A stretch of DNA of 64,000 bases from a bacterium. GTDB taxonomy: Bacteria > Sumerlaeota > Sumerlaeia > SLMS01 > JAHLLQ01. This document shows positions 1-20,274 of this stretch, in pieces. The stretch is taken from the NCBI GenBank assembly GCA_020444065.1, contig JAHLLQ010000001.1, positions 372,001-436,000 on the forward strand. Direction: 5' to 3'. The notes under the pieces are model-generated. The model had not been told where the DNA came from. It did not search any database and saw only the letters and a program-made list of their open reading frames with translations. The position numbers were made by a program, and so were the translations under genes. Position 1 is the stretch's first letter. Every line of letters begins with the position of its first letter.

Positions 1-993
1 CGGCAGCATGTAGGCGTTCCGTTTTCCGTGCGCGATGCTGAGTACGATGAACGGAATCACAATCCATCCGACAATTCCGGCCATTCCGGTCGGCCATTTG
101 CCGCGTGTGCGCCACAGGATGATTCCAGCAGGAATCAACAGGATCCCCCATGGTACGAAGATGCTCGTACACAAGTGCGTAAGGTAAAAGTAGAATGGAG
201 CGCCGTGAGAGCCATTCAGGAAACGTTCGACCGTTTGCTCGTGGATCTGACTGAGGATGAACTCCAATCCGTTCGCGTGAATCAACATCACGAGAACCAG
301 CGCGATGCCCGCAGCCAGAACAGCCACTCCACCGAGCAGACGAGTCTCACGCACTGGTCTCAGAGACCGTTCCGCGATCGATTCGGCGATGATGGGAGAA
401 ACGAAGATAATCAGCGCCAGGGGTCCCTTGATGAATGTCGCGGCCACCAGGGCAGCCCACATCACCAAGGCTCGGGCGAGCGGAATGACTTTCTCGCGCG
501 ATCTCGTCAGCAGGATCGCCATCGCGATCATCAAGGCCCCGGTGAACATCATGTCCAACTGGGCCTTTGGTGCGTCATCCAGGACCTGACCGGTTGTCAT
601 CAGCACAAGCGCCGCCATCAGCCCGGCCCGATAGCCAAATAACCGGCGGCCAATGACGAAGGAGAGCACAACTGCCAGAACACCAAAGAGTATCGAAGGA
701 ATTCGGAGGGTCCAGGTGGAGACCTTGCCGCCACTGAGCTTCAACATCCCCGCGAGGAACCAGAATGGCAGGGGCGATTTCTCGTCGTAGGGCTGACCGT
801 AAATGGTCAGTTGAAACGGGCTGCGGCCCTGGCCCACTTCCTTGGCTACCTGGACATAGCGGCCTTCATCCGGCCCGCGCAGATCCCAGAGCCCAGCGGT
901 CCCAATCCAGACTAGAGCACAGATCCCGGCCAGAAGCCCGATCGTCCTCCAATCCCGCCGTCCCCAAGCGAGCAACCTGTTTTCTTGAATCAT
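1..993 (-). CDS. ArnT/PMT-like membrane glycosyltransferase (3' end cut off)
   Basis: Likely transfers a sugar from a polyprenyl-phosphate donor to a lipid or protein at the inner membrane. The minus strand is open for 331 codons from ATG at 993 to the window edge, so the C-terminus is missing. After a first membrane span (about residues 18-36) comes GPDEGRYVQVAKE, the acidic first-loop motif of the GT39/GT83 (ArnT, PMT) fold. It is followed by YDEKSPLPFWF, like the Y.EKPPL..W motif of that family, and later by GAPFYFYLTHL..PW and SIAHGKRNAYMLP, also family landmarks. Many hydrophobic helices follow. No good ribosome-binding site is visible before the ATG, so the start is the weak point. The acceptor cannot be told; lipid A-type decoration is one possibility. 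Confidence 0.8.
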   Translation of the reverse strand, partial: MIQENRLLAWGRRDWRTIGLLAGICALVWIGTAGLWDLRGPDEGRYVQVAKEVGQGRSPFQLTIYGQPYDEKSPLPFWFLAGMLKLSGGKVSTWTLRIPSILFGVLAVVLSFVIGRRLFGYRAGLMAALVLMTTGQVLDDAPKAQLDMMFTGALMIAMAILLTRSREKVIPLARALVMWAALVAATFIKGPLALIIFVSPIIAESIAERSLRPVRETRLLGGVAVLAAGIALVLVMLIHANGLEFILSQIHEQTVERFLNGSHGAPFYFYLTHLCTSIFVPWGILLIPAGIILWRTRGKWPTGMAGIVGWIVIPFIVLSIAHGKRNAYMLP

Positions 994-17405: not shown

Positions 17406-17804
17406 TTACAGGGTCGGCACTGTGCGGGCGGCGCTGGGTTCCTTCGAGGACTTCAGAGCCGTGCGAGCCTGCTCGACCAGGGACGTGAAGCCCTTCGGGT
17501 CGTTGATGGCGATCTCAGCCAGCATCTTGCGATCGATCTCAACACCGGCCATGTTCAGGCCATTGATCAAACGCGAGTAAGCCATGCCGTTCTGGCGGCA
17601 AGCGGCGTTGATGCGAGCGATCCACAGACGGCGGTATTCGCGCTTCTTCTGCTTGCGGTCGTTGAAGGCGTACTGCAGCGCGCGCATGACGTTCTCATTG
17701 GCGGTGCGGAACAACCGATGGCGTCCACTGTAGAAGCCGCGGGCCTGCTTCAAAACTTTCTTACGACGTTTCCGCGATGCGGGGTTATTTGTTGCTCTGG
17801 GCAT
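17406..17804 (-). CDS. rplT: ribosomal protein L20
   Basis: 132 residues. Begins MPRATNNPASRKRRKKVLKQ and contains ARGFYSGRHRLFRTANENVM and YRRLWIARINAACRQNGM, all L20 hallmarks. L20 starts 50S assembly and in Bacillus and E. coli is also the repressor of its own operon, which matters here because the infC leader carries an attenuator-like structure. The C-terminal dozen residues (SSKEPSAARTVPTL) extend beyond the usual L20 end. Third gene of infC-rpmI-rplT. Confidence 0.98.
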   Translation of the reverse strand: MPRATNNPASRKRRKKVLKQARGFYSGRHRLFRTANENVMRALQYAFNDRKQKKREYRRLWIARINAACRQNGMAYSRLINGLNMAGVEIDRKMLAEIAINDPKGFTSLVEQARTALKSSKEPSAARTVPTL

Positions 17805-17870: not shown

Positions 17871-18065
17871 TTACTGGTTCAACATCCTCTTCAGGCGGCC
17901 CTCATCGGAGCCGTCGACGTAGGTGTGCTTGCGCAGGTGGCGCTTACGCTTTGCGTCCTTCTTCGTCAGGATGTGACGCAGGCCCTGCTTTTTGTGCTTG
18001 ATCCGGCCGGAAGCAGTCACTTTGATGCGCTTCTTCATTGCGGCCTTGGTTTTCATCTTCGGCAT
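17871..18065 (-). CDS. rpmI: ribosomal protein L35
   Basis: 64 residues, the normal size, beginning MPKMKTKAAMKKRIKVTASG and containing HILTKKDAKRKRHLR. Very basic. Lies between infC and rplT in the conserved order, with a 66-base gap to rplT. Confidence 0.97.
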   Translation of the reverse strand: MPKMKTKAAMKKRIKVTASGRIKHKKQGLRHILTKKDAKRKRHLRKHTYVDGSDEGRLKRMLNQ

Positions 18066-18158: not shown

Positions 18159-18719
18159 TTACGAGGTGGCCGCTTTGTCCTCTTCTTGATTTGCCTGCTC
18201 CGGCTTCCAATCCTTCCGCCGGGTGACAATCATGTGCATGAACTTGCCGGTCTGGCTCGGCGGCTTTTCCATCTCTGCAATGTCTTCCAGCTCTTTCAGG
18301 ACTGCCGAGACAAGCTGCTGTCCCAACTGCGGCTTGGTGACTTCGCGCCCGCGATACTGGAAGGTGAACTTCACCTTGTCGCCGTTCTCCAGGAACTTAC
18401 GAACTTTGCGCAACTTCGTATCCCGATCGTGGGCATCGATCGTCACGCGCATCTTGCATTCTTTCAGTTCGGACGACTTGGCCTTCTTCCGGGAGGCTTT
18501 CAGGCGCCGTTTCTGCTCGTACATCACCTTTCGGTAGTCATAGATGCGGCACACCGGCGGGTCGGCATTGGGAGCGACCTCGACAAGGTCCAGTTGGGCC
18601 TCCTTGGCGCGCTGCAGGGCATCCTCGGTTGCAACGACGCCGAGCTGTTCACCCTCCTGGCTGATAAGGCGGACCGACTTTGCGCGTATCTGATCATTGA
18701 TGCGAGCGGTAGGCTTAAT
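18159..18719 (-). CDS. infC: translation initiation factor IF-3 (AUU start)
   Basis: Prevents premature 30S-50S joining and checks start-codon pairing. The best start is an ATT at 18719: GGAGGA lies eight bases upstream and the product then begins KPTARINDQIRAKSVRLI, where IF-3 homologues begin. No in-frame ATG or GTG lies nearby; the in-frame ATG at 18800 would add 27 residues that run through a terminator. The 186-residue size fits. Both IF-3 domains are visible: N-domain ending PVCRIYDYRKVMYEQKRR, C-domain ECKMRVTIDAHDRDTKLRKV. An AUU start is known for infC in E. coli, where it allows IF-3 to limit its own translation. Confidence 0.93.
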   Translation of the reverse strand: MKPTARINDQIRAKSVRLISQEGEQLGVVATEDALQRAKEAQLDLVEVAPNADPPVCRIYDYRKVMYEQKRRLKASRKKAKSSELKECKMRVTIDAHDRDTKLRKVRKFLENGDKVKFTFQYRGREVTKPQLGQQLVSAVLKELEDIAEMEKPPSQTGKFMHMIVTRRKDWKPEQANQEEDKAATS

Positions 18720-18754: not shown

Positions 18755-18790
18755 AAAAAAAGCGGAGCACCGAATCGATCGGCTCTCCGC
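18755..18790 (-). terminator. leader terminator (attenuator) of infC
   Basis: On the minus transcript: GCGGAG, an inner CCGA/TCGG helix, CTCCGC, then seven U residues. This is a textbook intrinsic terminator, but it lies 36-71 bases upstream of the infC start and downstream of a candidate promoter. It therefore reads as an attenuator rather than a gene end. Confidence 0.75.
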
Positions 18791-18944
18791 ATACAAACAT
18801 AACCCAGGCGCCGCTCTACTTGCCACGACCCGGGAGAATTCTGCTTGTTTGTCCAACCCGGTTGCAGCCACCTGGGCGCGTGCGGGTGAGAAGCGGAGAG
18901 CTTCTACTTTGTGTTCGGCCTCTTCTTCTCTGAAGGGGCGCGCG
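18791..18944 (-). promoter_or_regulatory. infC leader with candidate antiterminator/pseudoknot
   Basis: Upstream of the leader terminator, 18889-18905 forms a hairpin AGAAGC-TCTCC-GCTTCT on the minus transcript. The segment GCTCTCCGC (18901 to 18893) is the exact complement of GCGGAGAGC (18790 to 18782), the 5' arm of the terminator. Pairing of the two would dismantle the terminator. The loop TCTCC alone could make a pseudoknot with the arm. L20-controlled leaders of infC or rpmI in Bacillus and E. coli use comparable long-range pairing; whether L20 binds here is inference. Confidence 0.6.
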
Positions 18945-18974
18945 ATACTCCCGACAGGTGGTGCCCCCTGTCAA
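18945..18974 (-). promoter_or_regulatory. candidate sigma70-type promoter of infC operon
   Basis: TTGACA (18974-18969), an 18-base spacer, and GAGTAT (18950-18945). Transcription would start near 18938, giving a leader of roughly 220 bases. The -35 and spacer overlap an inverted repeat GACAGG-N8-CCTGTC (18953-18972). Confidence 0.5.
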
Positions 18975-19116
18975 GCCCGGATTCTTGCTCCTCGTCACGA
19001 ATTCTCCTGCTTGCGTGACACGCCGATTTTCTTGACGGTTGGGGCTGGGCGCGGCTACCTTCAACTCATGCGGAAGACCGATTTGCGCCAATCTCCCAAG
19101 GCATGACGGGCTCGCC

Positions 19117-20274
19117 ATGACGACATCGGTCCGTGAAATCCTACGCTCAGGGCGACTGGAGACTCATTTCCTGCCTGTTCTGGACGTGCAACTCCGCTGT
19201 ATTCACGCCTGGGAAGCCCTTGCCCGCGGGCCGGAAGGGGCATTTCCCGATTCCAGCTTCCCCCTGCTGCACGCCGCTCAAGAAGAGAATCTTCAGTCGG
19301 AATTCGAACTGACCGCCATCCGGCATGCAGTGGATCGCTTCCGCTTTCACGACCCAGGGGTCAAACTCTGGCTCAATTCCGGATCGGACCTCCTGCTGGA
19401 TGAGACATTTGTCAATGAGGTCCGCGAGCTCCTGAACGAGACACGCGCAAATCCGACCGAGACTCAGATGATCATGAGGCTCCCGCGGGACCTGTCGCCG
19501 GCGCAGATGACGCTCCTCTCATCGGCGCTCAAGAGCCTCCAGCCGTTCGAGGTGATCGTCGCCTTCGATCAGTTGCCCGATTCACGCGAGTTCGCGGAAG
19601 TCTGTCGACGCCTCCCCGCCTTGCACTACTTGAAAATCGGTCGCCACGCTATCCGCGATCTTCCTTCGCGCGCAATCAAGCGCATGCACCTGGACGATCT
19701 TGCCAGCAAGGCCCGGGAGTTTGACATCCAGCTCATTGCTGAAGGTGTCGAGACGATGGAGGAGCTTCATGCCATCCGACCCCTGCGTCCTCAGTACGTC
19801 CAAGGCTTTCTGTTCGGTCGACCCGGCGACCCGCCGGAGGTTGACGTCCGCCTGCTTCCCGAGCTTGAAGTCTCAGCACCAGTGGTTCGCAAACGAGACC
19901 ATTGGAAGAGCATCGGCGATCTCATGACTCCTGCGCCGGTTGTGACGAGACGGACTCCGCTCTCGACAATCAAGGAACTGCTGGCGAATCACCCAGAGTT
20001 GCCAGGAATTCCCGTGCTGGACGAAGCCCGGCCGGCGGGCCTGATTCATCGTTGCGATGTTGAGTCTCGCGAAGACGATGCGATCGCGCGCGATCTTCTG
20101 GATGCGTCGATCACAATTGCCGGCGCGCACGAAGAACCGGCGGATGTTCTTCGCCATCTCGTCGAAGATTCGCACGGGCAATCGCGATTACCGGAAATCC
20201 TGTTTGTCCAATGGGATGGGCTTTATCAGGGAGTCGTGCTGCTCGAGTCCCTGCGCTCGCATCTACAGAACTAA
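19117..20274 (+). CDS. degenerate EAL-domain protein with CBS pair
   Basis: 385 residues from the ATG at 19117 (a longer in-frame start exists at 19039). Residues 10-250 follow the EAL phosphodiesterase fold: FLPVLDVQLRCIHAWEALAR (E33 of EAL) and IQLIAEGVETMEEL (E209), then VQGFLFGRP. Several catalytic positions are altered: the metal-binding glutamate after the TQMIM strand is absent (IMRLPRDL), and the DDFG loop reads AFDQLPDSREF. It may therefore bind rather than cut c-di-GMP. From about 265 on, SIGDLMTPAPVVTRRTPLST and GIPVLDEARPAGLIHRCDV look like a CBS-domain pair, which usually binds adenine nucleotides. Single gene, divergent from infC. Confidence 0.75.
   Translation: MTTSVREILRSGRLETHFLPVLDVQLRCIHAWEALARGPEGAFPDSSFPLLHAAQEENLQSEFELTAIRHAVDRFRFHDPGVKLWLNSGSDLLLDETFVNEVRELLNETRANPTETQMIMRLPRDLSPAQMTLLSSALKSLQPFEVIVAFDQLPDSREFAEVCRRLPALHYLKIGRHAIRDLPSRAIKRMHLDDLASKAREFDIQLIAEGVETMEELHAIRPLRPQYVQGFLFGRPGDPPEVDVRLLPELEVSAPVVRKRDHWKSIGDLMTPAPVVTRRTPLSTIKELLANHPELPGIPVLDEARPAGLIHRCDVESREDDAIARDLLDASITIAGAHEEPADVLRHLVEDSHGQSRLPEILFVQWDGLYQGVVLLESLRSHLQN

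Follow-up and report, generated by a model that had tools for sequence, protein, structure and literature searches.

Which kind of regulatory RNA, if any, stands between the probable promoter of an infC-rpmI-rplT operon and its first gene in a member of the uncultured phylum Sumerlaeota? The stretch of DNA analysed here, referred to as the window, comprises 64,000 nucleotides, and the operon and its leader are read directly from its minus strand. An earlier note on this sequence had described a complete intrinsic terminator upstream of infC together with an exactly matching antiterminator segment, and had proposed that the leader is a separate design serving the same operon as the known L20 leaders, possibly a new switch class. 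We show here how the leader is built, how its parts covary in relatives and how it compares with catalogued leader families.

Anatomy of the infC leader

The elements of the leader are compiled in Table 1. All parts of the terminator that had been described between TTGACA-N18-GAGTAT and infC were found on the minus strand, and the AGAAGC-TCTCC-GCTTCT hairpin, termed H2 here, was confirmed around the antiterminator segment. The exact complementarity reported for this segment holds as well: 18901-18893 forms nine Watson-Crick pairs with the terminator 5' arm at 18790-18782 (-17.4 kcal/mol). The segment consists of the entire five-base loop of H2 and the two stem bases flanking it at either end, hence pairing with the arm opens H2 and is an alternative to the hairpin. 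Thus, the loop-to-arm pairing of the earlier note stands, while the pseudoknot on an intact hairpin that it had envisaged does not.

Table 1. Genes and leader elements of the infC locus; minus-strand leader elements are given in the direction of transcription.
Feature	Position	Strand	Basis or remark
-35-like element TTGACA, probable infC operon promoter	18974-18969	-	read directly
Weak -10-like element GAGTAT, 18 bases past TTGACA	18950-18945	-	read directly
AAGU with the AA dimer (invariant AAGN of the L20 core)	18909-18906	-	AAG invariant in 32 relatives
Hairpin H2, AGAAGC-UCUCC-GCUUCU	18905-18889	-	RF00558 match; helix covariation
Antiterminator segment GCUCUCCGC, complementary to terminator 5' arm	18901-18893	-	inside H2
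CACCCG with invariant CACC; ACCCG (18887-18883) is the H1 5' strand	18888-18883	-	CACC invariant; H1 pairing
CGGGU, 3' strand of helix H1	18860-18856	-	read directly; H1 covariation
Intrinsic terminator hairpin GCGGAGAGCCGAUCGAUUCGGUGCUCCGC	18790-18762	-	-18.7 kcal/mol; aligned to RF00558 terminator
Terminator 5' arm, partner of the antiterminator	18790-18782	-	9 pairs with 18901-18893
U7 tract of the terminator	18761-18755	-	read directly
Shine-Dalgarno GGAGG of infC	18732-18728	-	read directly
infC (IF3), AUU start codon at 18719	18719-18159	-	Pfam IF3_N and IF3_C
rpmI (ribosomal protein L35)	17871..18065	-	Pfam PF01632, E 1.3e-23
rplT (ribosomal protein L20), presumed ligand of the leader	17406..17804	-	Pfam PF00453, E 4.6e-45
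Divergent gene, EAL domain then CBS domain	19039-20274	+	upstream of infC operon

A plain sigma-70 consensus scan did not accept the infC promoter because of the weak -10 element. In 21 of 32 relatives TTGAC lies 38-100 bases ahead of the core, compared to an occurrence in roughly 5% of the 80-base stretches in the window. In the alignment of infC start regions from G001-G039, most relatives show AUU, AUC or AUA in place of AUG, and the window gene has AUU.

Covariation and distribution in Sumerlaeota

The core, AAGN-[hairpin]-CACC...GGGU, was found in 32 of 37 Sumerlaeota infC leaders compared to 3 of 1498 control stretches. Five leaders are without it. In G018 a contig end cuts the region; in G011, G020, G025 and G026 (L122, L138, L148 and L136) no L20 core is seen upstream of infC, and here the leader seems to have been lost or replaced. 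In one relative (G027, L143 positions 830-876, plus strand) an Acido-Lenti-1 RNA (RF01687) match lies near infC, with 34 bits against a cut-off of 37.

Three motifs, AAG, CACC and GGU (the last in H1), do not vary among the 32 relatives, which is partly due to their use as alignment anchors; these were chosen by sequence and corrected by hand for G012 and G024, and the inner pairs of H1 and H2 lie outside of them. In both helices together 97.0% of the cells are paired, compared to 86.3% with shuffled 3' letters and at most 62.9% with slid partners, and there are 40 double changes where 13.4 are expected. H2 is paired in 98.7% of its cells with double changes in four of five pairs, H1 in 95.3% with double changes in two pairs. 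For the loop-to-arm pairing, the energy of each H2 with its own arm was compared to that with arms of other genomes in 5000 permutations, a test that corrects for kinship only partly and in which terminator and core were chosen manually for G028, G032, G037 and G038. Own arms reached -15.3 kcal/mol and swapped arms -12.0 kcal/mol, with no permutation as good (0/5000), and with one genome per family the values were -15.1 and -11.2 (0/5000). Examples of such H2/arm pairs are CUCCGUC/GACGGAG in G007, UCCGCCC/GGGCGGA in G021 and UCCCGCCCU/GGGGCGGGA in G012. The covariation check in the infC leaders of relatives, which the earlier note had put forward, was therefore positive for the hairpin core as well as for the arms.

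Families f1, f2, f3, f4, f8, f10, f12 and f15 together gave -19.3 versus -15.6 (0/5000). Loop-arm matching was not significant in families f5, f6, f13 and f14 taken together (571/5000), hence the antiterminator is not universal in Sumerlaeota. By energy, another stretch pairs with the terminator arm at least equally well in 13 of the 32 leaders. Core and terminator are kept in the leaders of f5, f6, f13 and f14 (G014, G015, G023, G024, G028, G029, G032, G033, G035-G038; L124-L133, L139, L146), and in several of them the arm pairs best with the CACC region immediately 3' of H2. These families may use an antiterminator with another partner.

The fold energy of the whole window leader is by itself unremarkable (z -1.52), a point in favour of a constitutive terminator with a chance complement and an unregulated operon. 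However, when the upstream leader is shuffled by dinucleotides, a nine-base complement of the arm arises in only 0.22% of cases, the core recurs in the relatives and both core and arms covary. Furthermore, the upstream EAL gene is divergent, so that the terminator at 18790-18755 can serve the infC operon alone. A constitutive terminator with a fortuitous complement can thus be given practically no weight.

Relation to the L20 leader family

The Rfam scan of the window at the gathering threshold returned a tRNA as the sole match and no leader. In a 551-base search with E-values allowed, the L20_leader family RF00558 matched 18915-18750 with 36.1 bits (E = 1.8e-5). The alignment is full-length (model positions 1-127), and the hairpin and the U-tailed terminator are co-located. 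In the whole genome of the window the infC leader is the single RF00558 match (E 4.2e-5), and in 99 genomes, some related and others not, each of the best 11 matches sits immediately upstream of infC. Second matches in G130 and G146 were considered as extra leaders; the one in G130 overlaps an rpsO-like gene at its 3' end and was attributed to chance. The score of the window leader is below the curated cut-off of 58.7, hence it is missed by routine Rfam annotation. The Clostridia locus L051 and some infC leaders from the G060 and G090 phyla likewise fail to reach this value, indicating that the cut-off is strict and not decisive.

The Rfam consensus of RF00558 contains the hairpin AGAAGC-ACCC-GCUUCU and a terminator 5' arm starting with GCGGg, which is complementary to the CCCGC of the hairpin. 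The window leader likewise lies upstream of infC-rpmI-rplT and combines an intrinsic terminator with an alternative antiterminator pairing. It also has the H1/H2 junction, AA dimer and paired G-C positions published for L20 sites. L20 leaders are described as retaining two features of the rRNA site, an AA dimer and two consecutive G-C pairs (PMC7247131); the paired helices and the invariant letters AAG, CACC and GGU in Sumerlaeota agree with this. These invariant letters and a paired H2 are common to RF00558 members of other phyla. RF00558 members from the G090 and G060 phyla gave a positive swap test as well, and H2-arm complementarity is thus a property of the family.

The comparison with catalogued leader families, named beforehand in the earlier note as the outcome that could refute its proposal, has therefore produced a match. 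A separate switch class that has a fold and a ligand of its own and serves the same operon by coincidence might still be suggested by the score under the Rfam cut-off, by the G+C-rich letters in loop and terminator and by a phylum for which no prior report of an L20 leader was found. However, the full-length alignment, the invariant letters and paired H2 shared with RF00558 members from other phyla, and the identical loop-to-arm pairing in such members make this idea extremely improbable, and the claim of a new design has to be given up. The window leader is very probably a divergent RF00558-type L20 leader that autoregulates infC-rpmI-rplT via transcription attenuation. Sequence and comparison support this with the leader anatomy, the family match, the covariation of helices and arms and the switch predicted during transcription.

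Outside the phylum, 80 named infC loci were inspected, and the core was seen in three Firmicutes (L051, L072, L103) and one Coriobacteriia locus; among these 80 it is absent from the named Deltaproteobacteria, Chloroflexota and Alphaproteobacteria leaders. The Coriobacteriia locus L093 (match starting at 435) has a terminator in front of infC together with a core-like element, AAGC-[8-pair hairpin]-CACC, and its leader has no Rfam match at E 0.5. In the phylum of G060 (L162-L190), RF00558 matches with E below 1e-5 were found in 32 of 60 genomes, chiefly in one family and nearly none in the other large family.

Proposed mechanism and comparison with known L20 systems

A constrained fold that forced the antiterminator gave back the unconstrained structure, and folding of truncated transcripts was used instead. 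In these growing-transcript folds the nine antiterminator pairs have a probability of 0.96-1.00 for 3' ends from 18782 to 18764, and the terminator dominates once the transcript includes 18762, the final base of its stem; the energies are then close to each other (-72.9 and -74.5). The predicted switch behaves like a finely balanced attenuator that can be tipped by a protein. In Bacillus, binding of L20 at the H1/H2 junction stabilises the terminator (PMC6097659; PMC10931766), and by homology to that system L20 is most likely the ligand here, with the same direction of control. Without free L20, the H2 segment 18901-18893 would pair with the newly made arm 18790-18782, allowing readthrough into infC. 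L20 in excess over rRNA would bind the AAGN-H2/H1 core and hold H2 closed. The arm would then stay free, the terminator at 18790-18755 could form and transcription would end before infC. The operon encodes IF3 and L35 as well, and since L20 is assigned by homology, either of them might be the ligand of an RF00558-like leader. However, L20 sites are reported to feature the AA dimer and the two consecutive G-C pairs that are conserved here (PMC7247131) and the homologous Bacillus RNA responds to L20 (PMC6097659), which renders IF3 or L35 very unlikely and leaves L20 as the preferred ligand.

The L20 leader has been placed in Firmicutes (PMC6097659) or in Firmicutes and Thermotogales (PMC3766115), and in the literature searched we found no earlier report from Sumerlaeota. 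The leaders described here question this confinement. They carry an autoregulatory RNA that has been studied in depth into an uncultured phylum, in which it escapes routine Rfam annotation, and as diverged sequences they add covariation support for the core helices and for the loop-to-arm antiterminator. One may speculate, although we consider it rather unlikely, that "Firmicutes plus Thermotogales" greatly understates the age or the mobility of L20 attenuators, which would be nearly universal in Sumerlaeota, with families f5, f6, f13 and f14 keeping the core while the antiterminator has been rewired to another partner or lost and the same terminator is under L20 control through another alternative pairing.

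Compared to known systems, the window leader is closest to the infC attenuator of Bacillus subtilis and RF00558, with which it shares the operon, the order of AAGN, H2, CACC/H1 and U-tailed terminator, identical H2 stem letters (AGAAGC/GCUUCU) and a loop complementary to the terminator arm. The spacer between core and terminator, 99 bases in the window leader, measures 42-103 bases in RF00558 members of other phyla. Differences are the G+C-rich loop and terminator, the longer spacer, the score under the cut-off and the phylum. The rpmI/rplT operator of E. coli, a long-range pseudoknot acting on translation, likewise mediates L20 autoregulation of the same operon (PMC10931766). However, there translation of the ribosomal protein genes is repressed and infC lies outside L20 control, whereas here the terminator is located upstream of infC. 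The L20 leader candidate of Deltaproteobacteria also retains the AA dimer and two G-C pairs (PMC7247131), but is described as yet another structural scaffold (PMC7247131) and is set apart by that description; in the Deltaproteobacteria infC loci examined, the core of the window leader was not seen. Thus, the design and the mechanism are known ones, and the supportable novelty is the new phylum, Sumerlaeota.
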